A stretch of DNA of 64,000 nt. Origin: Nocardioides panacis. GTDB taxonomy: Bacteria > Actinomycetota > Actinomycetes > Propionibacteriales > Nocardioidaceae. The position numbers and the translations under genes were made by a program. The stretch covers positions 1,550,001 through 1,614,000 of the forward strand of contig NZ_CP077062.1 in the NCBI RefSeq assembly GCF_019039255.1. Direction: 5' to 3'. Shown here one piece after another: positions 28,461 through 45,234 of the stretch. Under the pieces are notes generated by a model, which searched no databases, was not told where the DNA came from, and saw nothing but the letters and a program-made list of their open reading frames with translations. Position 1 is the first letter of the stretch, and every line of letters begins with the position of its first letter.

Positions 28461-29093
28461 ATGCGACTGTTTGCTGCCATCGTTCCGCCCCGGCCGGTCC
28501 TCGACGAGGTCCGGGCCGTGGTCGACTCGGTCCGGCCCGCCTCGGAGCCGGCACCCAAGCGAGGCCTGTTCTCCCGAGGCGGGGGACGCGGCCCGGTCGT
28601 CGAGGACGAGACCAACGACGAGCTGACGCAGCCGCCGGTCGAGCTGATGTACCTGCCGCTGACCGGCTTCGGCAACGTCACCCTCGGCGACTCGGTGCAT
28701 CTCGCCAAGGCGCTGCGCAACGAGGCCCTCACCTGGGCCCCCGCGACCCTGCACGTCGCCGGCGGCACCGCCCTGGAGTTCAAGGGCGACGAGTCGGTGT
28801 GGGCCAAGCTCGACGGCGACATCGACGCCCTGAACACCATCGGCCGCGGGGTCCCGCAGGTCGTGCAGCGGCTCGGCTTCTTCGTGGACCGCCGCCAGTT
28901 CCGCCCGTGGCTCGAGGTGGGCACGATCACCGACACCACCACCGCGCCGTACCTGCAGGCCGTCGTGGACGCCCTGGAGGCCTTCCACGGCCGGTCGTGG
29001 GAGGTCGACGCGATCTCGCTGATGAAGGGGCTGCCCGACGAGGGGCCGGACGCCTTCGAGGAGCTCGAGCGGATGCCGCTCGCTCCTCGCTAG
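28461..29093 (+). CDS. 2H phosphoesterase (LigT/ThpR)-like protein without the HxTx motifs
   Basis: The 210-residue protein begins MRLFAAIVPPRPVLDEVRAVV, as ThpR/2'-5' RNA ligase-like proteins do, and its order of strands and helices fits the fold. The two catalytic HxTx tetrapeptides are missing: where the first should be is LMYLPLTGFGNV, and where the second should be is FRPWLEVGTI. A charged insertion (about residues 30-55) is also atypical. It may bind nucleotides or RNA without cleaving it. It overlaps the stop of the GGDEF-EAL gene by 4 bp on the other strand. Function unknown. Confidence 0.75.
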   Translation: MRLFAAIVPPRPVLDEVRAVVDSVRPASEPAPKRGLFSRGGGRGPVVEDETNDELTQPPVELMYLPLTGFGNVTLGDSVHLAKALRNEALTWAPATLHVAGGTALEFKGDESVWAKLDGDIDALNTIGRGVPQVVQRLGFFVDRRQFRPWLEVGTITDTTTAPYLQAVVDALEAFHGRSWEVDAISLMKGLPDEGPDAFEELERMPLAPR

Positions 29094-31447
29094 ACCGACG
29101 GGGAGACGCGGGCCGGGTCGCGCTGCGGGATCGCCGGCAGCGCGCGGTTCTCGGCGATCACCTTGACCAGCTGGTCCAGCGGCATCGGCCGGTGCATGAG
29201 GTAGCCCTGGGCGAACGGCGCGTGCACGTGGTCGCGCAGGTGGTCGAGCTGGCTGGCCCGCTCGATGCCCTCGACGACCACGTCGAGCCCGAGTGCCTGG
29301 CCCATCATCGTGATCGAGCACAGCAGGGCGCACGAGCGCTCGTCGCGGTCGATGCTCTCCGAGAACGACAGGTCGGTCTTGATGATCCGCACCGGCATGT
29401 CCTGCAGGTAGCCGATCGAGGAGAAGCCGACCCCGAAGTCGTCGATCGCGAACGGCACGCCGCGGTCGGCCAGCGTGGACATCGCGCTCATCGACGCCGG
29501 ATCGGTGCCGATGCCGTCGCGCTCGGTGATCTCCAGGACGAGGGTCGCGCCGTCCATCTTGGCCATCGCCCGCTCGACCTTGGTCACGAAGTCCGGCTCC
29601 CGCAGCTGCTTGGCGGAGATGTTCACGCTGACGTTGAAGTCGCCGCCCGCGGCCCGGGAGATCACCGCGGCGTCACGGGCGGCCTGGTCGAGCACCACGT
29701 CGCCGAGGGCGACCACCAGACCGGTCTCCTCCGCGACCCGGATGAACACGTCCGGGGGTACGTCGACCCCGTTGGACTTCCAGCGCGCCAGCGCCTCGAC
29801 GCCGGTGATGTAGCCGGTGGAGGCACGCACGACGGGCTGGTAGACGAGCGTGAGGTCGCCGGCGGCCACGGAGGCTCGCAGGGACTCCACGAGCTCGAGG
29901 CGCTGGAGGCGCGAGCGGCCGATGGCCCGCTCGTACTCCACCCACTGGTTCTTGCCGCGCGCCTTGGCCTCATACATCGCCAGGTCGGCGTTGCGCAGCA
30001 TGCTCTCGGCGGTCTCGCTGCTGTCGCCGAACGCCACCCCGATGCTCGCGGACAGCGCCAGCTGGTGGCCGGCGACGTGCGCGCCCCGGCTGAGCGAGGT
30101 GAGGATCCGGTCGCAGGCGGTGCTGACCTCGGGCGGGTTCACGTCCTCGAGGAGCAGCGCGAACTCGTCGCCGCCGAGCCGGGCCACGGTGTCGCTCTGC
30201 CGCACGCACTCCCGCAGCCGCTGGGCGACGTCGATCAGCACCGCGTCCCCGGCCGCGTGGCCGAACCGGTCGTTGACCGGCTTGAAGCCGTCGAGGTCGA
30301 CGAACAGCAGCGCGATCCGGTTGCCGCGCCGGCGCGACATCTGCAGCGCGTGCTCGACCCGGTCGAGGAGCAGCCCGCGGTTGGGCAGGTTCGTGAGCAG
30401 GTCGTGACGGGCCAGGTGGGTCATGTCCTCGGTCAGCCGGAGCCGGGCGAAGGCGTCGGAGGAGACCGCCACCATCGCCTCGAGGGCCTGCTGGTCGGCG
30501 GTGGTCGTGGACCGGGCACGGTGCTGGCCGGGCGCCACGATCCAGCTGTCCCGCTGGCCGTCGCGCAGCTGGGCGCCGATCTCGTGGGCGCCGGGCGGGG
30601 TGGACCGGACCTCGACCTGCCCGATCCGCAGCAGCCGGCGGGCGTCGTCGGTGAGCGCGTCGACGACCTGGCGGGTGTCGGACAGCGTCTGGGCCCGGAC
30701 GGCCGCGTCGAACAGCACGCTGAGCCGCCGGGCGTTCTCCCGGCCGCGGTTGACCGCGCGGGTGGCGACGAGCAGCGTCACGAGCGGGACGGCGAGCAGC
30801 AGCAGGGTGTAGAGCTCCAGGTGGCGGGCGACCACGGCGCCGAGGTAGCCCAGCGAGTCGAACGGCACGAAGCAGGCGATCGCGAAGAGCGTGCCGCGCT
30901 GCACCAGGTGCCCGCGCACCGGGGTGTCGGTCTCGATGGCGACCGAGACCGCGGACGTGAGGTAGTCGGTGGCGAAGTAGCAGGCTGCGGCCAGCGCGAC
31001 GGCGACCAGCTCCCGGAAGGTGTCCTCGCCCTGGGGGCCGCGGACCTGGAAGACGACCGCGGCGGCGACCCCGCCGCCGAGGAACCCGACGCCGAGGTTG
31101 AAGAGCTTGACGGCCTGCCGCTTGTCGGTGGTCATCTGGGTGACCAGCACGCCGAGCGCCCAGATCACGACCGCCTCGTAGGGGCTCTTCAGGGTGCAGA
31201 GCAGGAACATCAGCACGCTGGAGTCGAAGCCGACCTCGATGCCGCCCTCGCCGCTGTCGAGCACCATCGGGAACTTCGCGATGATCACGATCAGCGGGAT
31301 GCAGACGAGCGCCAGCGCGTTCATCTGGACGCCGTCCTGGACCAGCCGGACCGTCGACCAGACGACCACGAACACCCCCGAGAGGAGGACGCCGAGGTCG
31401 AACCAACGGCTGCGCGACGCGAACAGCGCAGCGAGCGGTCGAGCCAT
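29090..31447 (-). CDS. Membrane GGDEF-EAL protein (c-di-GMP synthesis and breakdown)
   Basis: The 785-residue protein has about six N-terminal membrane segments (residues 15-230) of an unknown sensory type, a helical/GAF-like linker (about 230-340), a GGDEF domain with the intact motif ARLGGDEFALLL and an EAL domain with intact motifs GVEALARW, VNISAKQL, LEITE, DDFGVGFSS and KTD. Both activities, cyclisation of GTP and hydrolysis of c-di-GMP, are therefore possible. ATG 31447 follows a GGAGGT ribosome site. It is the only c-di-GMP enzyme with intact motifs here; the polysaccharide synthase at 37086 carries a degenerate GGDEF. Confidence 0.93.
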   Translation of the reverse strand: MARPLAALFASRSRWFDLGVLLSGVFVVVWSTVRLVQDGVQMNALALVCIPLIVIIAKFPMVLDSGEGGIEVGFDSSVLMFLLCTLKSPYEAVVIWALGVLVTQMTTDKRQAVKLFNLGVGFLGGGVAAAVVFQVRGPQGEDTFRELVAVALAAACYFATDYLTSAVSVAIETDTPVRGHLVQRGTLFAIACFVPFDSLGYLGAVVARHLELYTLLLLAVPLVTLLVATRAVNRGRENARRLSVLFDAAVRAQTLSDTRQVVDALTDDARRLLRIGQVEVRSTPPGAHEIGAQLRDGQRDSWIVAPGQHRARSTTTADQQALEAMVAVSSDAFARLRLTEDMTHLARHDLLTNLPNRGLLLDRVEHALQMSRRRGNRIALLFVDLDGFKPVNDRFGHAAGDAVLIDVAQRLRECVRQSDTVARLGGDEFALLLEDVNPPEVSTACDRILTSLSRGAHVAGHQLALSASIGVAFGDSSETAESMLRNADLAMYEAKARGKNQWVEYERAIGRSRLQRLELVESLRASVAAGDLTLVYQPVVRASTGYITGVEALARWKSNGVDVPPDVFIRVAEETGLVVALGDVVLDQAARDAAVISRAAGGDFNVSVNISAKQLREPDFVTKVERAMAKMDGATLVLEITERDGIGTDPASMSAMSTLADRGVPFAIDDFGVGFSSIGYLQDMPVRIIKTDLSFSESIDRDERSCALLCSITMMGQALGLDVVVEGIERASQLDHLRDHVHAPFAQGYLMHRPMPLDQLVKVIAENRALPAIPQRDPARVSPSV

Positions 31448-31515
31448 GTGACCTCCGGTTCGGGGTGGGCGAGCACCAGTATCCGGCAAGGAGGCGGCTC
31501 GTTTGTGGTTTTCGG

Positions 31516-31725
31516 TCAGCCCGCGTCGACGGGGCCCGACGGGTCCAGCGGTTCGACGTCGCGCAGGAACCCGCGCGCGCCGAGGAAGTCCCCGAGGGAC
31601 GTCCGGTGCTCGTCGCAGGCCAGCCACGACTTGCGACGGTCGGGGGTGTGCAGCTTGGGGTTGTTCCAGAGGAGCGACCAGACCGCGGGCGCCTGGCACC
31701 CCTTGGCCGAGCAGATGGGGGACAT
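31516..31725 (-). CDS. Small actinobacterial cysteine/histidine protein
   Basis: The 69-residue protein has CSAKGC near the N-terminus and CDEH further on (about residues 5-10 and 37-40), which could bind one zinc. The core WNNPKLHTPDRRKSWLACDEH is familiar from a conserved actinobacterial family, sometimes labelled acetone carboxylase without good reason. ATG 31725 is leaderless (TAGCGT 7 nt upstream). It sits alone between the GGDEF-EAL gene and a terminator. Function unknown. Confidence 0.75.
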   Translation of the reverse strand: MSPICSAKGCQAPAVWSLLWNNPKLHTPDRRKSWLACDEHRTSLGDFLGARGFLRDVEPLDPSGPVDAG

Positions 31726-34149: not shown

Positions 34150-35845
34150 GTGACTTCCGCACTCGTCGAGCTCCGGGTCCTCGAAGGACCGAACCTCTAC
34201 TTCCCGCGCGCCGCGATCAAGCTGACCCTGGACCTCAGCGCGCTGATCGACGCGCAGGAGTGGGTGGCCATGCGCTTCGCCACCCGGATCGGCCTGCTGA
34301 AGGCCCGTCCGGGGGGCGCCGGGCAGCGGTTTCCGGCAGCGGTTCGCGGCCCGGGCGATCGAGCGCCTGGTGCGCCAGATCGCGGCGGAGGCGGGCACGA
34401 CGCGGCTCGCGCTGCGGGTCCGGCCGACCAACGACGTGCACCAGGTCGTGGTGGCGTTCCCGTGGCGCAACCGCACCCGCGCCCAGGCGCTCGGCCGGGC
34501 CGTCGCGGAGGTGCTCGACTCGCTGCTCAGCCCCGACCTCGAGGAGCTGGTCAGCCACGCCGCCGAGTCGGTGCGCGCGTCCGACCCCGGCCCCGGACCC
34601 ACCACGCTGCGGCCGCGGGTGCCGATCGTCGCGGTGACCGGCACCAACGGCAAGACCACGACCTCGCGGATGGTCGCGCACATCGCCCGCACGCACGGCC
34701 TGCACGTCGGCTGGTCGAGCACGGACGGCATCTACGTCGACGGCGAGCTCGTCGAGGCCGGCGACTACTCCGGTCCGTCCGGCGCCGGCCGGGTGCTGGC
34801 CCACAAGCAGGTCCAGCTCGCGGTCACCGAGACCGCGCGCGGCGGCATCCTGCTCAAGGGCATCGGGCTGACCCACAACGACGTCTCGGTGTTCACCAAC
34901 GTCTCCGCGGACCACCTCGGGCTGCACGGCATCGACACCCTGGACCAGCTCGCGGAGGTCAAGGGCGTCGTACCCCGGATCACCAAGGCCTCGGGCTGGG
35001 CGGTGCTCAACGGCGACGACCCCCGGGTCTACGCCACGCGCAGGTCGATCAAGGCCACGCCGTGGGTGTTCTCCCGCGACCCCGACTCGCCGGCGATCCG
35101 GGAGACGCTGTCCGAGGGCGGGCGCGCCACCACGGTGATCGACGGCTGGCTCTCGGTGCTCTACCCCGACAGCGACGCCGACCCGCTGGTGGAGGTCGTC
35201 GACATCCCGATGACGCTGGCCGGGCTGTCCCGGTTCAACGTCGAGAACGCCCTCGGTGCCGCCTCCGCGGCGCTGGCGGTCGGGCTGCCGCGCGCGGCCG
35301 TCGTCGAGGGGCTCACGTCGTTCCGCCCGGACCCCGCGCACAACCCGGGCCGGATGAACTTCTTCTCCCACGACGACGTGAGCGTGGTCATCGACCTCGC
35401 GCACAACGAGGCCGGCCTCGAGGCGCTGATCGAGATCATGAACGGCGTACGTCGACCGGGCTCACGGCTGCTGCTCGGCCTGGGCGCGGTGGGGGACCGG
35501 CAGGACGACCTCGTCGACCGGCTCGGGGAGATGGGCGCCCGCGACGCGGACGTCGTGGTGGTCGCGCACAAGGAGAAGTACCTGCGCGGCCGCACCACCG
35601 AGGAGCTCGACGCGCTGTTCCGGTCCGGCGCCGCGCGGGTGGGCGTCGAGGACGTCCCGGCGTACCCCACGGAGGTGGCTGGGCTGGCCGCCCTCGTCGC
35701 GCAGGCCGGTCCCGGGGACGTCGTCGCGCTGATGTGCCACGAGGACCGCCAGGGTGTCTACGACTGGCTGGCGGCCCACGGGTTCACGGTCGACGCCCCC
35801 GAGACGCTGCGCGACAAGGTGCGTGCGGCGGCGGCTCAGGCCTGA
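34150..35845 (+). CDS. Cyanophycin-synthetase-like Mur ligase without ATP-grasp domain (one-base shift at 34311-34323)
   Basis: After removal of one G near 34311-34323, the two frames give a 564-residue protein. Residues 1-160 resemble the N-terminal domain of cyanophycin synthetase (VLEGPNLYFPRAAIKLTLDL, compare CphA ETRVYRGANVWSYDKAIHL). From about residue 160 a Mur-ligase domain begins with AVTGTNGKTTTSRMVAHI and includes ARGGILLKG, ADHLGLHG, NGDDPRV and HNEAGLEAL. The ATP-grasp domain that lies between them in CphA (40927-43683 here) is absent. It should join an amino acid or peptide to an acid using ATP. Substrate unknown. Confidence 0.85.
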
Positions 35846-37089
35846 GGCCTGCCGACCAGGTCCGGGTAGTACTCCCGGGGACGACCGTCCCGGTCGCGCA
35901 GCATCCGGAGCTTGCTGGTCGGCTGCTCGATGACCCGGAAGCTGACCCAGCCCACGGCGACCGAGCCGGCCAGCACGATGGCCAGGGTGAGCGGCAGCGC
36001 CTGGTCGGCGCGACCGATCAGGCCCCAGTGCTGGAACAGCATCATCAGCGGCTCGTGCCACATGTAGGTGCTGTAGCTGATCAGGCCGAGCCAGGTGATC
36101 CCCCGCCAGGACAGCATCCTCGACCACAGCTGCCCGGGTGCGCCGAGCACGGTGCTGGCCATCAGCAGGAACCAGCCGACGGCGGCGAAGTCGTGGAACA
36201 CGACCTGCCCCCAGGTGCCCGGGTCGGACAGCAGGGCGCCGCCGAGCACGACGGCCACGCCGAGCCAGCGCACCAGTGCCGGGGCGGCACCGGAGAGCAG
36301 CGGCCGACCCTGGCGGGCGGCGGCGATCACGGCGAGCAGCATGCCGGCGCCGAAGGCGCCGAACCGGGCCTGCGGGCCGAAGTAGGCCGGCCAGTTGTCG
36401 AACGGGATGTCGAGGGCCAGGAAGGCCACCGAGTTCCAGACGAACGGCACGACGGTGAGCACGGCGGCCCCGGAAGCGAGCAGCTGCACCCGGCGGCGGC
36501 GGGAACCGAGGCGCGTGCAGGCGCGCACCGCGAGCGGCCCGAGCAGCACCAGGACGCCGTAGAAGATCACCTCGAGGCTCATCGACCAGGTCGGGCCCAC
36601 GGTGTAGAAGATCCGCTCCCGGTCGAAGACCTGGAGGAACAGCAGGTGCTCGACGAGGTCGAGCCAGTCGCCGGGCAGGGCGGGGTTGCGGATCGCCCAC
36701 ACCACGGTGACACCGATCCAGTAGAGCGGCAGGATCCGGACCGCCCGTCGGAACAGGAACTGGCGGGCGGGTCGCACCGGGGTGCGGTCCAGCGCCGCGC
36801 GGGCGTAGGACAGGGTCAGGAGGTACGACGACATCAGGAACAGGATGTCGACGGTCTCGAACCGCGCGAGCGCGCCCAGCACGGGGTTCAGCTCGCGGCC
36901 GCTCTGGGCGGCGTACTGGAAGACGTGGAAGACGACGATCGTCAGGCCCACGAGCCCGCGGTAGCCCTCGAGCTCGCGGGCGCGCCCGCGGCTGGGTGCG
37001 CCCTCGGGGGAACCGGAGCGGGGCCGGGTGCCGGCCTCGGAGTCGGTGGGGGTGACGTCGGCGGGACGGTCGGTGCTCAGCGTGGTCAT
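35836..37089 (-). CDS. Acyltransferase family 3 (OafA-like) membrane protein
   Basis: The 417-residue protein has about ten membrane segments and the family-3 acyltransferase signature: ELEGYRGLVGLTIVVFHV (about residues 38-55, with catalytic His), the later RFLFRRAVRILPLYW and the WSMSLEVIFYG motif. Such enzymes add acetyl or other acyl groups to polysaccharides or glycans on the cell surface. The ATG overlaps the stop of the GT2 fusion gene (ATGA), so the two are coupled, and it likely modifies the polymer made by that enzyme. The stop overlaps the Mur ligase gene tail to tail by 10 bp. Confidence 0.92.
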   Translation of the reverse strand: MTTLSTDRPADVTPTDSEAGTRPRSGSPEGAPSRGRARELEGYRGLVGLTIVVFHVFQYAAQSGRELNPVLGALARFETVDILFLMSSYLLTLSYARAALDRTPVRPARQFLFRRAVRILPLYWIGVTVVWAIRNPALPGDWLDLVEHLLFLQVFDRERIFYTVGPTWSMSLEVIFYGVLVLLGPLAVRACTRLGSRRRRVQLLASGAAVLTVVPFVWNSVAFLALDIPFDNWPAYFGPQARFGAFGAGMLLAVIAAARQGRPLLSGAAPALVRWLGVAVVLGGALLSDPGTWGQVVFHDFAAVGWFLLMASTVLGAPGQLWSRMLSWRGITWLGLISYSTYMWHEPLMMLFQHWGLIGRADQALPLTLAIVLAGSVAVGWVSFRVIEQPTSKLRMLRDRDGRPREYYPDLVGRPQA

Positions 37090-39488
37090 GCGCTCACCTC
37101 CTGGTGGTCGCGTGCGGTGTCGGTGCTGCGGTCCGTGCTGCGGTCGGTCGTGCCGGCGGAGCGGGGGGTGACGTTCCACTGGGCCTCCCCGACCAGCTCC
37201 TTCACCTGGGCGATCCGGCCGATGATGTTCTTCCACTCGGTGTAGACCACCGAGGACACCAGCAGGTGGCTCCAGAACCAGGAGGAGCGCTCCCGGATCT
37301 CGGGCACGGCCAGCCGCCAGGCGAACAGCGTCTGCGCCGGCCCCACGGCCAGCGTGAACAGCGTGGTCAGCAGGAGCGCCGGGGCCAGCCAGTCGAGCTG
37401 GGTGATCCCGCCCTCGCGGTAGGCCGTGTAGGCCAGCACCGGGAACATCTGCAGGGACAGCCACGGGTAGATCTCGCGCCAGCCCAGCAGGAACGCCAGC
37501 CCGCCCTTCTGGCGGAGGCTCAGGTGCGGCGAGGCGATGGTCAGCCGCAGGTGCTTGCGGGAGACCTGGAACCAGCCCTGGGCCCAGCGGGCGCGCTGCT
37601 TCCACAGCGACGTCACGTTGGTCGGGGCGAGCTCGTAGGAGATCAGCGCCGGGTCGGAGGCGATCTTCGCGCCGGCGGCCAGCACCCGCAGCGTCGAGTC
37701 GATGTCCTCGGTGAGCATCGAGCCGTGCATCCGGGTCTCGGCCAGCAGGCTGGTGCGCCAGTAGCCGTTCGAGCCGCCGAACAGGCCGAAGCCGTGCAGG
37801 GCCGCGCGGCCGGGGTGGCTGACGGCGTAGATCGACTCGAACTCGACCGCGACGGTGCGGGCCACCAGGGAGGCGTCGCCGTTGCGGATCACGCAGTGCC
37901 CCTGCACGACGTCGTACCCGTTGGACAGCCAGCGCCACGCGCGCTGGAACGCACCCGGTTCGGGGTGGTGGTCGGCGTCGAACATGCCGACGAACTCGCC
38001 GGTGACGTGGCTCATCGCCGCGTTCACGTTCTGCGCCTTCGAGGTGCTGTTCTCCACCTTGAGCGGCAGGATCCGCGGGTCGAGGCGGGCCATCTCCCAC
38101 AGCTCGTCCTCGACGGCCATCGGGTGCGGGGTGTTGTAGGCGACCAGGATCTGGAACGGCCCGGGGTACTCGACGCGCTGGAAGGCCTCGACGGTGTCGA
38201 CGATCGTGGCGGCCTCGTTGGGGAGGTACGCCGCGATCACCGCGGTCGCGCCGGGGTGCGGGGCGCCCGGCTCGTCCGGCGGACGCTGCGGGTCGAGGGC
38301 GTAGAACCCCTCGAGCCAGATCGCGCCGGCGGTGACCAGCAGCGCAGCCATCACCACCCAGTAGGCGATCCCGGAGACGTCCCAGCCGACCGCGCCGAGG
38401 GCGAGGTAGCCGAGGAACGGCAGGCCCACGCCCAGGACCAGGGTGAGCAGGAACTGCGCGGGCAGCCGGAGCCGGTTGCCCACCGTGGCCGCGGAGCGGC
38501 GGAGCCGGCCCGGACCGCGACGGTCGGGGTCGGTGGCCGGCTCGAGCGACGGGGTCCACTCCACGGGCAGCAGGTCGAGGTGGTCGCCGGCCACCCGCAC
38601 GGCGCTCAGCGCCCGGTCGCGCAGCTGCGCGCCGCTGGAGGCGGTGGCGAACGAGGTCCAGCCGGTCACCGGGGTCACCCGGACGACGTCCTCGTTGCCG
38701 AGCGCGAAGCGGGTCGCGGCGATCCGCCGGGCCAGGGCGCCGAGCCGTCGCTCGACCTCCTGGGGGCCGGACTCCGGCAGCAGCAGGAGCAGCCGGCCGT
38801 CGCGGTCGACACCGGCGCGCTCCAGCCCCTCGGGGGAGTCGGCGATCAGCTCGGTGACCTGGGTCGCGATCTGGGTGGCCGCGCCGCCGCCGAAGCGGTC
38901 GAGCAGCCGGGGCATCTCCTGCAGCTCGACGATGCCGAGGCCGCCGTTGCGGCGGGCGCGGAGGCCGCGCTCGAGCTCCCGGCCGGCCTCGTCGACAAAG
39001 GTCGTCTCGGAGAGCAGGCCGGTGCGCAGGTCCCGGCTGACGAGGGAGGCCGGGACCGGGGGACGGGCGGTCTTGGACCGCACGCGGGCGGCCAGCTCCA
39101 CGCCGGAGACGCTGGGCGGCAGGCAGTCGTCGGCGCCCAGCGCGAGGCCGGTCAGCACCTCCTCCTCGTCGCCGCTGGTGAGCAGCAGCACGGGCACGGT
39201 GCGGCCGGGCCGCGCCTCGCGCAGCCGGCGCAGCAGGTCGAGCCCGTCGGGGCCGTGGCCGCCGACGGAGGCGACGACGACGTCCGGACGCAGCCGGGAG
39301 AAGGCCGCGAGGGGGTGCTCGCCGGGACGGCGGTCCACGACGACGAAGCCGCACGCGCGCAGGGCCGCCCGGGCCTCGTCGGCGAAGGGGCTGTCGTCGA
39401 CCAGCAGCACGGTGGAGAGCGGCTGGCCCGGGGTCTCGTCCGGGGTCTGGTCCGGGGTGGAGAGGGGGCGTGAGGTCAAGGCTGTCAC
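37086..39488 (-). CDS. Polysaccharide synthase: pseudo-receiver, degenerate GGDEF and GT2 glycosyltransferase fusion
   Basis: The 800-residue protein has three parts. Residues 26-140 are a receiver domain (LLVDDSPFADEA) in which the phospho-acceptor Asp is Ser74 and the conserved Lys is Pro. Residues 150-310 are a GGDEF-like domain whose signature is replaced (GVDRDGR, near 226). Residues 340-800 are a GT2 domain between membrane segments, with FDADHH (503-508), TEDID (593-597) and QRARWAQGW (631-639), the DxD, TED and Q(R/Q)xRW motifs of processive cellulose/hyaluronan-type synthases. Catalysis is intact while the signal domains look inactive, so they may bind a ligand. It is divergent from the GH30 lipoprotein gene with 27 bp between starts. 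Confidence 0.9.
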   Translation of the reverse strand: MTALTSRPLSTPDQTPDETPGQPLSTVLLVDDSPFADEARAALRACGFVVVDRRPGEHPLAAFSRLRPDVVVASVGGHGPDGLDLLRRLREARPGRTVPVLLLTSGDEEEVLTGLALGADDCLPPSVSGVELAARVRSKTARPPVPASLVSRDLRTGLLSETTFVDEAGRELERGLRARRNGGLGIVELQEMPRLLDRFGGGAATQIATQVTELIADSPEGLERAGVDRDGRLLLLLPESGPQEVERRLGALARRIAATRFALGNEDVVRVTPVTGWTSFATASSGAQLRDRALSAVRVAGDHLDLLPVEWTPSLEPATDPDRRGPGRLRRSAATVGNRLRLPAQFLLTLVLGVGLPFLGYLALGAVGWDVSGIAYWVVMAALLVTAGAIWLEGFYALDPQRPPDEPGAPHPGATAVIAAYLPNEAATIVDTVEAFQRVEYPGPFQILVAYNTPHPMAVEDELWEMARLDPRILPLKVENSTSKAQNVNAAMSHVTGEFVGMFDADHHPEPGAFQRAWRWLSNGYDVVQGHCVIRNGDASLVARTVAVEFESIYAVSHPGRAALHGFGLFGGSNGYWRTSLLAETRMHGSMLTEDIDSTLRVLAAGAKIASDPALISYELAPTNVTSLWKQRARWAQGWFQVSRKHLRLTIASPHLSLRQKGGLAFLLGWREIYPWLSLQMFPVLAYTAYREGGITQLDWLAPALLLTTLFTLAVGPAQTLFAWRLAVPEIRERSSWFWSHLLVSSVVYTEWKNIIGRIAQVKELVGEAQWNVTPRSAGTTDRSTDRSTDTARDHQEVSA

Positions 39489-39515
39489 TCGGTCTCCTCT
39501 GGCAGGGTGGTCACG

Positions 39516-40937
39516 ATGAACGTTCAGGAAGGTGGTCGCGGCGCGGCCCGCAGCGGGCTCGGTCGCGCGGCGGTGGCCGTGGCGGTCGTCTGGTGCTGTC
39601 TCGTGGCCGCGTGCACGTCGACCACCCGGGAGGGCTCCGGCTCCGCACCTGAGGTGCGCGCCTGGGTCACCACGGCGTCCGGCAGCGAGAAGCTGTCCGA
39701 CCGTGGCCCGGTCCCGTTCGTCACCGGAAGGTCCGGCAAACCCGACATCGTCGTCGAGAACGGACGACGCTACCAGCAGTTCTTCGGGGTCGGCGCATCG
39801 ATCACGGGGTCCTCCGCCGTGTTGCTCGACACGTTGCCGGACGCCGTGCGCTCACGTGTGATGCGCGACATCTTCCAACCAGGGAAGGGGATCGGGCTCT
39901 CCGTGCTGCGCCAGCCGGTGGGCAGCAACGACTTCTCGACCAGCGACTTCTCCTTCGCCCCGGGCCGTGACGAGGACCACGTGCTGCCGCTGCTGCAGGA
40001 GGCCGCCCGGCTCGACCCGTCCCTCGCGGTGGTGCTCAGCCCGTGGAGCGCGCCGGCCGCCATGAAGACCACCGGGTCGCTGGTCGGTGGGTCGCTGCGC
40101 CCCGAGGACGCCGGCGCCTACACGGACTACCTGGTCGGCGCGGCCCGCGCCTACCTCGACGCCGGCGTCCCGGTGCGCGGGCTGACCGTGCAGAACGAGC
40201 CGAGCTTCTCGCCTGCGTCGTACCCCGGGATGACGCTGGACACCGAGCAGCAGCGCACCCTGCTGCGCGACCACGTGGCGCCGGCCCTGCGACGGGCCGG
40301 GCTGCGGTTGCACCTGTGGGCGCTCGACGACAACTTCGACCGCTGGCCGGACGCCGACGCGCTGCTCTCCGACCCGGCCACCCGGCAGGCGGTGTACGGC
40401 GTCGCGTTCCACTGCTACCGCGGGGACGTGGCGGCGCTGCGCGAGCTGCGGGACCGGCACCCACGCGTCGCGGTGTCCGTCAGCGAGTGCAGCGGGGGAG
40501 CGTGGTCGGGCGGCTTCGCGCGCGAGCTGCGCTACGAGGCGCGCACGATGCTCGTCGGCGCGGTCCGCAACGGCGCGGCCTGGCTGGTGAAGTGGAACCT
40601 CGCCCTCGACCCGCGGGGCGGTCCGACGCACGGCGGCTGCCAGGACTGCCGCGGCCTGGTCACGGTGGACCCGGCGACCGGCACGGTCACCCCCAGCCCG
40701 ACGTACTACGCGTTCGGCCACCTGGGACGGTTCGTCACGCCGGGCGCGCGGGTGATCGGTGCCACCGCCCGCTCCGGCTCGCACCTGGACACCGTGGCGT
40801 TCCGGAACCCGGACGGCTCCCACGTGCTGGTCGTCTTCAACGACGGGGGCAGCACGCGGGACGTCCGGGTCGGCACCGGTGACCGGACCTTCGGCTACCG
40901 GCTGCCGGCGGGGGCGCTGGCCACGTTCACGTGGTGA
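39516..40937 (+). CDS. GH30-family glycoside hydrolase, lipoprotein
   Basis: Predicted extracytoplasmic beta-glycosidase anchored by lipid. A signal sequence ends in a lipobox (LVAAC, near residue 33). The TIM-barrel part carries the acid/base Glu in TVQNEPSF (Glu228) and the nucleophile Glu in SVSECSGG (Glu324), which are the GH30 landmarks, and the C-terminal beta domain follows. I start at ATG 39516 with an AGGGTGG ribosome site; GTG 39507 is possible. Divergent from the polysaccharide synthase by 27 bp, so it could trim, release or remodel its product. The 3' end overlaps cphA by 11 bp. The sugar linkage cannot be read from sequence. Confidence 0.9.
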   Translation: MNVQEGGRGAARSGLGRAAVAVAVVWCCLVAACTSTTREGSGSAPEVRAWVTTASGSEKLSDRGPVPFVTGRSGKPDIVVENGRRYQQFFGVGASITGSSAVLLDTLPDAVRSRVMRDIFQPGKGIGLSVLRQPVGSNDFSTSDFSFAPGRDEDHVLPLLQEAARLDPSLAVVLSPWSAPAAMKTTGSLVGGSLRPEDAGAYTDYLVGAARAYLDAGVPVRGLTVQNEPSFSPASYPGMTLDTEQQRTLLRDHVAPALRRAGLRLHLWALDDNFDRWPDADALLSDPATRQAVYGVAFHCYRGDVAALRELRDRHPRVAVSVSECSGGAWSGGFARELRYEARTMLVGAVRNGAAWLVKWNLALDPRGGPTHGGCQDCRGLVTVDPATGTVTPSPTYYAFGHLGRFVTPGARVIGATARSGSHLDTVAFRNPDGSHVLVVFNDGGSTRDVRVGTGDRTFGYRLPAGALATFTW

Positions 40938-43683
40938 AGTCGGGGTCGCCCACCGGGCCGTCGGTGGTCTGCCCGGAGCCGGCCTGGGCCTGGTTCGACC
41001 AGTTCTCCAGCTCGGACATCACCGTGGGGTGCTTGTCGACGCAGACCACCACGAGGTCGCCCGGGTTGGCGCGCGACATCGCGTGCCGGACCGCCTCGAT
41101 CTCGTCGAGGACGATCTCCAGCTGCTTGCAGCGCGCGCCGGCGTCCCGGCTGGCCCGGACGCCCTCGGCGACCAGCTCCGCGGTGGCGCCGCGCTCGCGG
41201 CCGCGCAGCGACACGTCCTCGCGGACCACGACGACGTCGAAGTGCTGGGCCGCGATGGCCCCGAGCTCCCGCATGTCGTCGTCGCGCCGGTCGCCGGCGG
41301 TGGCGATCACGCCGATCCGCGACGGCCGGCCCAGGTCACTGGTGGTCGCCATGCTCTCCCCGACCCGGTCGACGAAGTCGCCGAGCGCCTTCATGCCGGG
41401 GGCGTTGTGGCAATAGTCGACGATGACCTGCACCCCGTTGACCTCGACCTCGTTGAGCCGGCCGGGGGAGAGGTAGTAGCTCGTCGAGAAGGTCCGCAGG
41501 CCCTGCCGGATGTCGTGCAGGGGTGCACCGGCCGCGAACGCGGCGGCCGCGGCCGCCAGGGCGTTCTGCACGTTCATCCGGGCCTTGCCGCCGAACGTCG
41601 CCGGCAGGAGGTGGGTCCAGGCGAGCTGCATCTCGCGGCGACCGTGCTTGACCACGATCATCTCGCCGCGCTCGCTGGGCTCGAGGACGAGCGCCTTGCC
41701 GCCGCGACGGCAGTGCGCGTCGATCATCTCGCGCTCCTCCGAGCCGGGCTCGGACATCGAGAACCAGACGACCTGGCCGGAGCACTTGCGGCGCATCGCG
41801 CGGACCAGCGGGTCGTCGGCGTTCAGCACGGCGTGACCGTCGCGCGGGACCGCCTCGACGATGACCGCCTTGACGTCCGCGAGCTGCTCGACGGTGTCGA
41901 TGCCGCGCAGGCCGAGGTGGTCGGGCTGCACGTTGAGCACCACGGCGACGTCGTTGCGCTCGTAGCCGAGTCCCTCGCGCAGGATGCCGCCGCGGGCCAC
42001 CTCGAAGACGCCGAAGTCCACGCGCGGGTTCTGCAGCACCATCCGGGCCGACTTGGGCCCGGACGCGTCCGAGCGGATCACCAGGCGCTCGTCGATGACC
42101 ACGCCGTCCGTCGAGGTCATGCCGACCTTGCGGCCCATGCCCTTGAAGATGTGCGAGATCATCCGCGACGTCGTGGTCTTGCCGTTGGTGCCGGTGACGG
42201 CCACGATCGGGATGCGGCTCGGGGCACCGGGCGGGAACAGCATGTCCACGACCGGCTTGGAGATGAACTGCGGCTCGCCGATGGTCGGATGCGTGTGCAT
42301 CCGGAAGCCCGGGGCGGCGTTCACCTCGCAGATCGCGCCACCGGTCTCACGGACCGGCTCGGTGATGTCGGGGCAGATGAAGTCGATGCCGGCGATGTCG
42401 AGGCCGACCATCCGGGCGGCCTCCTCGGCGATCTCGACGTTCTCGGGGTGCGCCTCGAAGGTGCGGTCGATCGAGATGCCGCCGGTCGACATGTTGCCGG
42501 TCAGGGTGAGCTTGACCGTCTCGCCGGCGGGCGGCACGTCGCCGAGCTTGTAGCCCTGGTCGGCGAGCAGCGCGACCGCTGCGTCGTCGACCTTGATCCG
42601 GGTGAGCACCTTCTCGTGGCCGACGCCGCGGCGCGGGTCGGCGTTGGTCAGCTCGACGAGGTCCTCGATGCTGCTCCGGCCGTCGCCGATCACGTGCGCG
42701 GGCACCCGCTCGGCCACCGCGGCGAGCCGGCCGTCGATGATCAGGCAGCGGTAGTCGCGCCCGGTGATGTAGGACTCCACGATCACCACGCCCCGGCGGG
42801 ACTGGTCCTTGGCGATCGGGAACGCCGCGCGGACGTCGTCGGCGTCCTTGAGGTCCAGGCAGACGCCCCGGCCGTGGTTGCCGTCGAGCGGCTTCACGAC
42901 GACCGGGAAGCCGATCCGCTCGGCGACGGTGGCGGCCTGGTCGGCGGTGCGCACCGACTCCTGCTTGGGCACCGGGAGGCCGGCGGCGCCGAGCAGCCGG
43001 GTGGTGAGGTCCTTGTCGGAGGCCACGTCGACGGCGATGGCACTGGTGGCCGACGTCATCGTCGCGCGGATCCGCTTCTGGTGGACGCCCTGGCCGAGCT
43101 GGACCAGCGAGTGCTGGTTGAGCCGGATCCAGGGGATGTCGCGGGAGACGGCCTCGTCGATGATCGCCTGGGTGGACGGGCCGAACGACGTGCGCTCGGC
43201 GCGCAGGATGAAGGCCTCGCGCTCCTTGTCCCAGTCGAACTCCGGGTCGGCCTCGACGAGGTGGTTCACCAGGCGGACGGCGAGCCGTGCCGCCGCGATG
43301 CCGACCTGCTCGTCGACGTACCCGTAGACGATGTTGTAGTGGCCCTTCCGGCCCTTCACCGAGCGGGTCTTGCCGCGCCGGATGTCGTGGCCGACCTCCT
43401 GCTGCAGCGCCAGGGCGGCGTGCTCGGCGACGTGACCCAGCCAGGTGCCCTCGTTCAGCCGCTCGACGAAGCCGCCGCGCCGGCCGCGCGAGCAGGAGTG
43501 CTCCCGCAGGCCGGGCAGCAGCTGCAGCAGGTTGTCGGTGAAGCCCGTCAGCGTGTTGGTCGGGAACTCCTCGAGCGACCCGAGGTCCACCACGAGGTGG
43601 ATCGCCTTGTCGTAGGACCAGACGTTCGCGCCGCGGTAGACGCGGGTCTCGAGGATGGACAGGTCGGGGGACGGGGTGCTCAT
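40927..43683 (-). CDS. cphA: Cyanophycin synthetase
   Basis: Makes cyanophycin, a poly-aspartate backbone with arginine side chains, by two ATP-dependent ligations. The 918-residue protein has the three expected parts: an N-terminal domain (residues 1-165, beginning ILETRVYRGANVWSYDKAIHL), an ATP-grasp domain (about 215-475, VVKPLDGNHGRGV and ICEVNAAPGFRMHTHP) that adds Asp, and a Mur-ligase domain (about 490-900, VAVTGTNGKTTTSRM) that adds Arg. The ATG at 43683 overlaps the cyanophycinase stop. It is unusual to find this storage polymer outside cyanobacteria and some proteobacteria, though other actinobacteria have it. Confidence 0.94.
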   Translation of the reverse strand: MSTPSPDLSILETRVYRGANVWSYDKAIHLVVDLGSLEEFPTNTLTGFTDNLLQLLPGLREHSCSRGRRGGFVERLNEGTWLGHVAEHAALALQQEVGHDIRRGKTRSVKGRKGHYNIVYGYVDEQVGIAAARLAVRLVNHLVEADPEFDWDKEREAFILRAERTSFGPSTQAIIDEAVSRDIPWIRLNQHSLVQLGQGVHQKRIRATMTSATSAIAVDVASDKDLTTRLLGAAGLPVPKQESVRTADQAATVAERIGFPVVVKPLDGNHGRGVCLDLKDADDVRAAFPIAKDQSRRGVVIVESYITGRDYRCLIIDGRLAAVAERVPAHVIGDGRSSIEDLVELTNADPRRGVGHEKVLTRIKVDDAAVALLADQGYKLGDVPPAGETVKLTLTGNMSTGGISIDRTFEAHPENVEIAEEAARMVGLDIAGIDFICPDITEPVRETGGAICEVNAAPGFRMHTHPTIGEPQFISKPVVDMLFPPGAPSRIPIVAVTGTNGKTTTSRMISHIFKGMGRKVGMTSTDGVVIDERLVIRSDASGPKSARMVLQNPRVDFGVFEVARGGILREGLGYERNDVAVVLNVQPDHLGLRGIDTVEQLADVKAVIVEAVPRDGHAVLNADDPLVRAMRRKCSGQVVWFSMSEPGSEEREMIDAHCRRGGKALVLEPSERGEMIVVKHGRREMQLAWTHLLPATFGGKARMNVQNALAAAAAAFAAGAPLHDIRQGLRTFSTSYYLSPGRLNEVEVNGVQVIVDYCHNAPGMKALGDFVDRVGESMATTSDLGRPSRIGVIATAGDRRDDDMRELGAIAAQHFDVVVVREDVSLRGRERGATAELVAEGVRASRDAGARCKQLEIVLDEIEAVRHAMSRANPGDLVVVCVDKHPTVMSELENWSNQAQAGSGQTTDGPVGDPDFTT

Positions 43684-44672
43684 ACGTGATCTCCTTCGGC
43701 CGACTGGCGGGCACGGCGGCGGCGCAGCACGGTGGGCGAGATGTCGCCCGCGGCGATGTCCCGAGCCAACCGCTTGAGGTCGCGACCCGCAACCGCGAGC
43801 TCCTCGGCCTCGCCGGGGTCCACGACCGGCGCCTCGCGCACCAGCGTCTTCTCGGTCAGGTTGAACGCCGAGCCGGCCGGCAGCACGTGCAGCTGGACCC
43901 CGGAGGCGAGCAGGGGAGCGGTACGACGGGCCTCGTGGGCGTTCGACACGACGTTGCGGCCGTCGAACACGGTGACCACGCCGCGGCCCACGACGCGCAT
44001 GATCTCCGCGCCGTTCTCCTCGGTGATCACGGCGCCGGTGTCCTCGTCCACGCCGATGCCGAGCAGGCCCGGGCTCTGGGCGACCAGCATCAGCAGCCGG
44101 CCGTAGCGGTTGCGCTGCCCGAAGTGCTGGTCGATGACCACGTCGCGGATCAGGCCGAGGCCGGCCGCGAGCTGGGTCATCCGCTGCTTGGGCGTCGAGC
44201 CGCCGGTGCCGAACGCGACCATGTGCGAGCTCTGGATGCTGGCACCGGCGCTGGTCCCGCCGACGACGACCCCGCGGGCGTGGGCGGCCTTGATGGCCTC
44301 GCCGAACGCGGTGCCGTTGACGATCGCGGAGAGCTTGAGCTGGTTGCCGCCGGTCATGAAGATGCCGGTGACGTCGTCGAGCAGGCCGACCACCTCGGGG
44401 TCCTCGGCGGCCTCCCGGCTGTCCGGCCGGGCGGCGACGACGTCGGCCGCGCCGAGCTTGCGGAACAGCGCGTCGTACACCTCGACGACCTCGGGCCCCA
44501 GCGAGCTCGCGGTCGGGATGACGGCGATCTTGGCGTCCCGGCCGCCGGCCAGGGAGAGGAAGGTCTTCAGCACCGTCCGGCGGCCGAGCTTGTCCTCGGC
44601 ACCGCCGATGGCGATGAGTGGCCCGGGTCCTGAGGGGGGAGTCCTGTCTGTCGATGTCGGCTTCGCTGGCAT
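43680..44672 (-). CDS. cphB: Cyanophycinase (peptidase family S51)
   Basis: Serine exopeptidase that releases beta-Asp-Arg dipeptides from cyanophycin. The nucleophile is in VVGGTSAGASI (the GTSAGA motif), with GGNQLKL upstream and DQHFGQRNRYGRL downstream, all typical of S51. From ATG 44672 the protein has 330 residues. A second reading starts at ATG 44688, 7 nt after TAGGCT (44701-44696), and enters the same frame if one G is removed from the G6 run at 44634-44639, giving MPNGPDASEAD as N-terminus. Synthesis and breakdown genes are coupled by an ATGA overlap, so the polymer is probably a dynamic nitrogen store. Confidence 0.93.
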   Translation of the reverse strand: MPAKPTSTDRTPPSGPGPLIAIGGAEDKLGRRTVLKTFLSLAGGRDAKIAVIPTASSLGPEVVEVYDALFRKLGAADVVAARPDSREAAEDPEVVGLLDDVTGIFMTGGNQLKLSAIVNGTAFGEAIKAAHARGVVVGGTSAGASIQSSHMVAFGTGGSTPKQRMTQLAAGLGLIRDVVIDQHFGQRNRYGRLLMLVAQSPGLLGIGVDEDTGAVITEENGAEIMRVVGRGVVTVFDGRNVVSNAHEARRTAPLLASGVQLHVLPAGSAFNLTEKTLVREAPVVDPGEAEELAVAGRDLKRLARDIAAGDISPTVLRRRRARQSAEGDHV

Positions 44673-44721
44673 CTGGACCGTTCGGCATGCAGCGCAGCCT
44701 ACGGGGTGCCAGAGTTGGCCC

Positions 44722-45234
44722 GTGACTGACCGGCGGCGCTTGATCGTGATGCGGCACGCGAAGGCCGAGCCCTTCGCGTCCAGCGACCATGCCCGCACCC
44801 TGACCGACCGTGGACTGGCCGGGGCGCGGGACTCCGGGGCGCACCTGCGGGGGCTCGGGGTCGCCCCCGACTACGCGGTGGTGTCCTCCGCGGTGCGCAC
44901 CCGCCAGACCTGGGACGCGGTCGTCGAGGCGGCCGGCTTCACGGACTGCGAGGTCTCGTTCGACGACGCGGTGTTCTCCGGCAGCCCGGACGTGGTCCTC
45001 GAGGCGCTGCGGGCCGCACCGGCCGACGCCGGCACGGTGATGTTCGTGGGCCACAACCCCACGGCCGGGTTCCTGGTGCACTTCCTCGACGACGGCGAGG
45101 GCGACCCTGCCGCCCTGTCCGACCTGCTGCACGGCTTCCCGCCCGGGGCCGTCGCGCTGCTCGACGTCGGTGTCCCGTGGGCCGACCTCGGCCCCGAGAC
45201 CGCCCGGGTCGTCGCCTTCCACCAACCCGCCTGA
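44722..45234 (+). CDS. sixA: Phosphohistidine phosphatase SixA
   Basis: The 170-residue histidine-phosphatase-fold protein has the catalytic RHG-like motif LIVMRHAKAEPF (residues 7-18), Arg in SSAVRTRQT and the second His in MFVGHNPTAGF. It would remove phosphate from phosphohistidine proteins. The GTG at 44722 is divergent from the cyanophycinase gene. I see no ribosome site, and the -10 is uncertain. Length matches SixA. Confidence 0.88.
   Translation: MTDRRRLIVMRHAKAEPFASSDHARTLTDRGLAGARDSGAHLRGLGVAPDYAVVSSAVRTRQTWDAVVEAAGFTDCEVSFDDAVFSGSPDVVLEALRAAPADAGTVMFVGHNPTAGFLVHFLDDGEGDPAALSDLLHGFPPGAVALLDVGVPWADLGPETARVVAFHQPA

Follow-up and report, generated by a model that had tools for sequence, protein, structure and literature searches.

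The stretch of DNA analysed here, hereafter the window, comprises 64,000 nucleotides of the genome of Nocardioides panacis (contig NZ_CP077062.1, positions 1,550,001 to 1,614,000). It encodes a protein in which a receiver-like domain and a GGDEF-like domain are fused to a membrane synthase part of glycosyltransferase family 2 (GT2; Table 1). The open reading frame (ORF) starts with GTG and has no internal stops. Genes for an acyltransferase and for a glycoside hydrolase of family 30 (GH30) adjoin it, and the three genes lie between cyanophycin-related genes.

Table 1. Features of the synthase locus, in window positions.
Feature	Position	Strand	Description
Receiver-like / GGDEF-like / GT2 membrane synthase	37086-39488	-	ORF of 800 aa
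Asp-less receiver	39063..39413	-	Residues 26-142; Ser74 at acceptor, Cys122 at aromatic switch, Pro125 at Lys site
GGDEF-derived domain	38559..39035	-	Residues 152-310; GGDEF motif lost, RxxD replaced by ExxE
Hydrophobic segments and GT2 part	37149..38438	-	Residues 351-780
Acyltransferase family 3	35836..37089	-	PF01757, 88 bits; 4-base overlap with synthase stop
GH30 glycoside hydrolase	39507..40937	+	PF02055, 112.7 bits
Cassette (acyltransferase, synthase, GH30)	35844..40929	.	Absent between cyanophycin genes in four congeners
Half-length cyanophycin-synthetase-like ligase	34370-35845	+	C-terminal half of model only
Full cyanophycin synthetase	40927-43605	-	Convergent with half-length ligase
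Cyanophycinase	43680-44798	-	

A scan of species genomes yielded 295 confirmed relatives of the synthase, and the best 80 of these were analysed together with the window protein (81 rows; relatives carry L numbers). The sample therefore over-represents the full domain layout, and the share of that layout among all relatives cannot be derived from it. All 80 of the best relatives align with both the receiver and the GGDEF-like parts. An earlier note on this DNA had proposed that the same fusion be sought in other genomes and, judged by their sequences, these receiver-GGDEF-like-GT2 fusions form a widespread family. Three sequences are incomplete (L064, L107, and L108, the last ending inside GT2), and L108 is a near copy of L030 (517 of 529 positions). 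The N-termini of L022 and L023 are short; alignment A1 was built without these two rows, L026, and L028, and the tree without L064, L084, L107, and L108.

Hosts of the relatives include Streptomyces, Actinomadura, Cellulomonas, Demequina, Cryobacterium, and Mycolicibacterium, along with metagenome-assembled genomes (MAGs) of Frankiales, Pseudonocardiales, Chloroflexota, Acidobacteriota (one), and alphaproteobacteria, among others. At E<=1e-40, relatives were detected in 15 of 197 genomes of the family to which the window belongs and in six of 396 genomes of a phylum sample, counting the genome of the window in both, and in none of the six other genomes of its genus. At E<=1e-100, they were detected in 23 of 199 genomes of a genus (g28) taken to be Streptomyces. 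The receiver is missing in 12 relatives from the same family and in L027 from the phylum sample. When six of those 12 were combined into one profile, a GGDEF-like relic was recovered from approximately residue 203 onward (hhalign 96.8%, E 2.8e-10); Pfam by itself missed this relic, with GGDEF at E 0.19 in one of the same six. Close to the Chloroflexota relatives L060 (3133-5730) and L049 (2459-4978) are genes for a GH94 phosphorylase and for a sugar nucleotidyltransferase/phosphomutase fusion.

The window protein is probably a bacterial membrane enzyme that makes a sugar polymer. Pfam model PF13641 (GT2) matches residues 412-638 with 78.7 bits, and hydropathy runs indicative of membrane segments cover residues 342-397 and 698-716. 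The earlier note had held that the catalytic motifs of the synthase are kept, and this applies to DxD (residues 504 and 506), TED (593-595), and QxxRW (QRARW, 631-635), which are present in 81, 80, and 80 of the 81 rows, respectively, the missing row being a gap in the truncated L108. It does not apply to the DDG motif, which binds uridine diphosphate in BcsA-type GT2 enzymes. YNT aligns with this part of the BcsA sequence CDDGG, and Y451 and N452 occur in all 81 rows. The YNT codons (38130-38138, minus strand) encode residues 451-453, and donor binding may differ from that of BcsA. PilZ was not matched in the window protein by Pfam at E<=1, which agrees with the distinction drawn previously from BcsA with PilZ.

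The receiver is recognized by Pfam as Response_reg (residues 27-136; 36.7 bits against a cutoff of 30.2). Alignment places Ser74 at the position of the phospho-acceptor Asp, as the earlier note had read it, and further identifies Pro125 in place of the partner Lys and Cys122 in place of the Tyr/Phe aromatic switch; Asp31, Asp32, and Thr104 are retained. The domain is thus homologous to receivers and lacks the acceptor Asp and Lys partner of a phosphorylatable response regulator, which places it among aspartate-less (pseudo-)receivers. The acceptor position is Asp in 30 of the 81 rows (26 of them strictly canonical receivers), Leu in 49, Ser in the window alone, and Ala in L029. Cys122 is found in all 51 rows without Asp and in four of the 30 with it (L030-L032 and L108). 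Its codon (39123-39125, minus strand) directly follows a conserved GADD. In Streptomyces and Actinomadura rows, a PGPR-type stretch frequently takes the place of the receiver's acidic pair and recalls, by pattern alone, the c-di-GMP (cyclic di-GMP) motif [Y/F]xGPx[R/K]R listed for Cle in PMC10333796. Phosphorylation of Ser74 was considered as the leading explanation and rejected, since a Ser found in a single row and replaced by Ala in the partner row L029 is not conserved, which makes phospho-Ser unlikely.

We assign the middle domain to GGDEF because profiles of relatives match GGDEF; Pfam matched this stretch of the window protein alone to GGDEF_2 at E 0.036, below the cutoff. Among 45 non-redundant N-termini (44 loci and the window), Response_reg was detected in 39 and PF00990 (GGDEF) in 32. 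A profile of the N-terminal family matched PleD (6e-65) and the receiver-GGDEF protein 6ZXM (3e-40) with both domains aligned through, and hhalign against a GGDEF-EAL protein encoded in the window itself gave 94.7% (E 6e-8). Residues 229-233 (R-D-G-R-L) align with the GGDEF of both PleD and this GGDEF-EAL protein, and a motif of the type [ASG]G[DE][DE][FY] occurs in none of the 81 rows, which bears out the loss of the signature claimed previously. The RxxD I-site reads ExxE in the window and is absent from 70 of the 81 rows, being present in 11. At positions of the GTP site aligned with PleD, the window has Glu188 for what is presumably the metal-binding Asp and Leu196 for what is presumably the guanine-binding Asn.

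Because GGDEF, RxxD, and the presumed metal Asp and guanine Asn are all changed, neither cyclase activity nor binding at the known c-di-GMP and GTP sites is expected of the window domain. The suggestion that the degenerate GGDEF binds c-di-GMP or GTP consequently does not fit the residues present, although binding may occur at a new site. What stands of the ligand-sensing, non-enzymatic module proposed earlier is a module predicted to be non-enzymatic and fused to the synthase, while sensing of these ligands is unsupported. Among the 55 rows with Cys122, many of which are from closely related Streptomyces, R135, R142, R198, R224, G226, G231, and D305 are invariant across the two domains. R224, G226, and G231 belong to the old GGDEF hairpin, as does D228, which is kept in 52 of the 55.

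The loci were screened by a profile search with kinase cores as queries (E<=1e-10). Up to 3.5 kb from the synthase gene, 13 of the 30 Asp-bearing loci have a histidine-kinase core, as against none of the 50 Asp-less loci (Fisher p 3.8e-7, kinship ignored); around the window gene, none was detected up to a distance of 7 kb. Of the 13 kinase loci, 11 have both HisKA and HATPase_c according to Pfam, and 10 have GAF or PAS sensor domains; the kinase of L037 has HisKA without HATPase_c, and L054 was outside the Pfam scan. Eleven of the cores are encoded downstream of the synthase and on its strand, that of L036 upstream, and that of L037 on the opposite strand, and an acyltransferase gene follows the kinase gene in L033 and L069. 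These observations suggest that two-component control of the forms with an intact receiver is likely. On the tree, six changes of the kinase label are counted over 44 rows.

Other scans bear on how these counts are to be read. A looser search gave kinase-like matches at 4.3-4.7 kb in three Asp-less loci (L053, L061, and L080), and the Asp-bearing L032 has a HATPase/SpoIIE hybrid more than 3 kb upstream. A looser count of 28 of 30 against 1 of 50 was discarded because some queries held receiver domains that matched the synthase itself. Narrower scans recovered L036 and L069 by motif pattern and, by Pfam, HisKA in six (85 of 105 neighboring ORFs, 21 of the 30 Asp-bearing loci), the latter an undercount with ORFs overlapping the synthase end left out. 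Small ORFs directly after the kinase genes (L033 5953-6327, L038 5645-6022, L081 9969-10370, and L083 10267-10677) were probably matched via the receiver in one query and could represent free-standing receivers belonging to this system.

Phylogenetic reconstruction of the GT2 part (58 rows, 45 of them receiver-bearing) paired the window with L029 from Marmoricola (support 98 in the Shimodaira-Hasegawa-like approximate likelihood ratio test, SH-aLRT) and joined this pair to the MAG proteins L030-L032 with support of 100. The loss of Asp in the window branch looks secondary, since L030-L032, its closest neighbors, keep the acceptor. Parsimony requires two changes of the acceptor among the 45 receiver-bearing rows, or four when receiver-less rows are treated as a third state, and by parsimony alone two losses are indistinguishable from a loss and a regain. 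The change to Cys122 occurs once on the best tree, on a branch whose support of 76 is not strong; L108, which combines Asp and Cys122, is outside the tree. The simplest order appears to be a change from Tyr to Cys followed later by loss of Asp, twice. The window and L029 share 68% identity in the receiver, 67% in the GGDEF-like domain, and 87% in the synthase. Crude ratios of nonsynonymous to synonymous divergence (omega), for which synonymous divergence (dS) is unreliable at this guanine-plus-cytosine (GC) content, are 0.31 (L031-L032) and 0.38 (L030-L031) for the receiver in Asp-bearing pairs.

Of the 76 relatives whose downstream sequence extends for 1300 bases or more, 53 have the acyltransferase gene next to the synthase gene on that side, and it is present anywhere in the locus in 56 of 80 (tblastn). 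The GH30 gene starts 18 bases from the synthase gene on the opposite strand, and GH30 was detected by tblastn near five of the 80 relatives (L029, L030, L032, L108, and L033). Its top NCBIfam model is endo-1,6-beta-glucanase (230 bits against a cutoff of 700), its closest solved entry is 5NGK (1.6e-53), named glucosylceramidase by the depositors, and a lipobox-like LVAAC was seen by eye in the protein. All-against-all BLAST clustering of neighbors seemed to consist mostly of shadow ORFs at this high GC content and was replaced by the directed tblastn searches. A description of a polysaccharide locus of this kind (synthase, acyltransferase, sometimes GH30) was not found in the literature searched.

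Both flanking cyanophycin ligases are present in five of the seven genomes of the genus; the comparison covered six other genomes, and the two without the left gene are less complete assemblies. In four congeners, the convergent cyanophycin genes are separated by 35, 148, 279, and 840 unaligned bases, and homology of the window to congeners ends at 35830-35864 and restarts at 40930-40938. The three genes appear to behave as one unit, gained in the window lineage or lost elsewhere, because the cassette is missing between the flanking genes in these four congeners. The 840-base gap, in congener G055 (L116 1914-2753), looks by eye like ABC-permease coding sequence, and the spot may therefore take up DNA repeatedly. 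A search for promoters, terminators, tRNAs, and repeats bounding the cassette gave no convincing candidates. The GGDEF-EAL protein of the window (29090-31699, minus strand) has an intact-looking motif, RLGGDEF, and is encoded near the cassette, approximately 5 kb from the synthase gene.

Collectively, these observations make it moderately probable, in our judgment, that a polymer synthase acquired a receiver-GGDEF module as its control arm, which is driven by a kinase in some lineages and acts independently of phosphorylation in the window. The ancestor of the synthase N-terminus would be a receiver-GGDEF response regulator. Where the receiver has stayed intact, a neighboring histidine kinase would phosphorylate it, and the GGDEF-like domain would relay the resulting rearrangement to the synthase, such that the output is polymer synthesis rather than c-di-GMP. 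In the window branch, with the kinase gone and the phospho-switch dead, the module would be non-enzymatic and phosphorylation-independent and may set the oligomeric state of the synthase or dock a partner. The polymer, likeliest a beta-glucan, may be O-acylated by the acyltransferase, whose gene overlaps that of the synthase, and the GH30 enzyme may trim it.

Several observations weigh against this interpretation. The DD pair and Thr are still present in the window receiver, 17 of the 30 Asp-bearing loci have no nearby kinase, the nearest relatives L030-L032 included, and the kinase contrast is confounded with kinship, since the tree yields two independent pairs (looser label), too few for a test. 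The YNT change casts doubt on the donor sugar and even on the predicted activity of the synthase, and the GH30 score is under the equivalog cutoff. Crude omega between the window and L029 is 0.48 for the receiver and 0.50 for the GGDEF-like domain, as compared with 0.18 for the synthase, and between the window and L031 it is up to 0.89 (receiver) and 0.99 (GGDEF-like). Divergence of the N-terminal domains far above that of the synthase means that decay is possible.

Such decay is the core of one alternative, in which the N-terminal module is functionless in the window branch and undergoing loss, as the receiver was lost in other members. The 12 receiver-less relatives from the same family, the greater divergence of both N-terminal domains, and the lack of a kinase near the window gene are consistent with it. 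Yet the frame remains open in the window and L029, omega against L029-L032 is below 1 in both domains, within the limits of dS noted above, and the Cys122 rows share invariant positions in both domains, even if many are closely related Streptomyces; we consider a vestige unlikely, if not markedly so. Gating of the synthase through binding of c-di-GMP or GTP by the degenerate GGDEF or pseudo-receiver, in the manner of PelD, PopA, and FimX, is to our minds very unlikely. There is precedent in degenerate GGDEF domains that control polysaccharides (PelD and BcsE; PMC8461298) or sense GTP (FimX; PMC8846402) and in pseudo-receivers that bind c-di-GMP (ShkA and Cle; PMC10333796), RxxD persists in a minority of the rows, and the GGDEF-EAL protein is encoded nearby. 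However, the window I-site and GTP-site residues are replaced. The idea that the GGDEF-EAL protein supplies a link to c-di-GMP was rejected since its gene is not a conserved neighbor, with a relative in one of 80 loci (L070).

The distribution of Cys122, present wherever Asp is absent and changed once on the tree, raises the prospect that a new chemical input, either thiol redox at Cys122 or a Ser/Thr kinase acting on Ser74, replaces phosphorylation of Asp. A paper on aspartate-less receivers raises the possibility that Cys and Ser residues at the acceptor position are modified (PMC4395418). Against this, 49 of the 51 Asp-less rows have Leu at the acceptor, with Ser and Ala in one row each, and Cys122, following GADD, may be structural, such that we view this replacement as highly improbable. 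A broader version, to which we give little credence, would have a kinase-controlled synthase converted stepwise to a thiol or small-molecule sensor that directly gates the GT2 polymerase. In this route, the switch would become Cys in one change, Asp would be lost (most simply twice), the neighboring kinase gene would disappear, and the dead GGDEF hairpin would gain the conserved signature R224-x-G-x-D-x-x-G-x-L.

Receiver-GGDEF proteins normally act via a diffusible messenger. Here, such a module forms a single protein with a polymer synthase. The family offers a natural series of an intact receiver (often with an adjacent kinase gene), a dead receiver, and no receiver, and it is suited to testing signal relay without c-di-GMP and the role of a non-phosphorylatable pseudo-receiver.

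The three-part fusion was not found described in the literature searched, which left subscription journals mostly outside its reach. Among the closest published architectures are receiver-glycosyltransferase fusions in Methanobacteriaceae, such as the receiver-BcsA-like protein MTH_548, which likewise join one or more receivers to a PF13641 synthase; their description covers three archaeal genera and mentions no GGDEF-derived domain (PMC5847659). PelD and BcsE also tie a catalytically dead GGDEF to polysaccharide synthesis, but they are separate proteins, and c-di-GMP binding by PelD relies on RxxD, a motif absent from the window protein (PMC8461298). Aspartate-less receivers share the missing phospho-acceptor and are reported to be enriched with GGDEF outputs; the main text of that report has no instance of 'glycosyl' and no glycosyltransferase output (PMC4395418).

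PleD and PopA have the same order of a receiver followed by a GGDEF-derived domain (for PopA, as tabulated in PMC10333796), and homology to PleD is detectable. They differ from the window protein in that its output is a GT2 synthase, with neither a cyclase motif nor RxxD, and in that it has one receiver whereas PleD matches with two. On the side of the synthase, BcsA and PgaC/IcaA share DxD, TED, and QxxRW with the window protein, which in contrast has no PilZ and has YNT for DDG. Its scores are far below the equivalog cutoffs for PgaC (75 of 422) and CelA (45 of 699).

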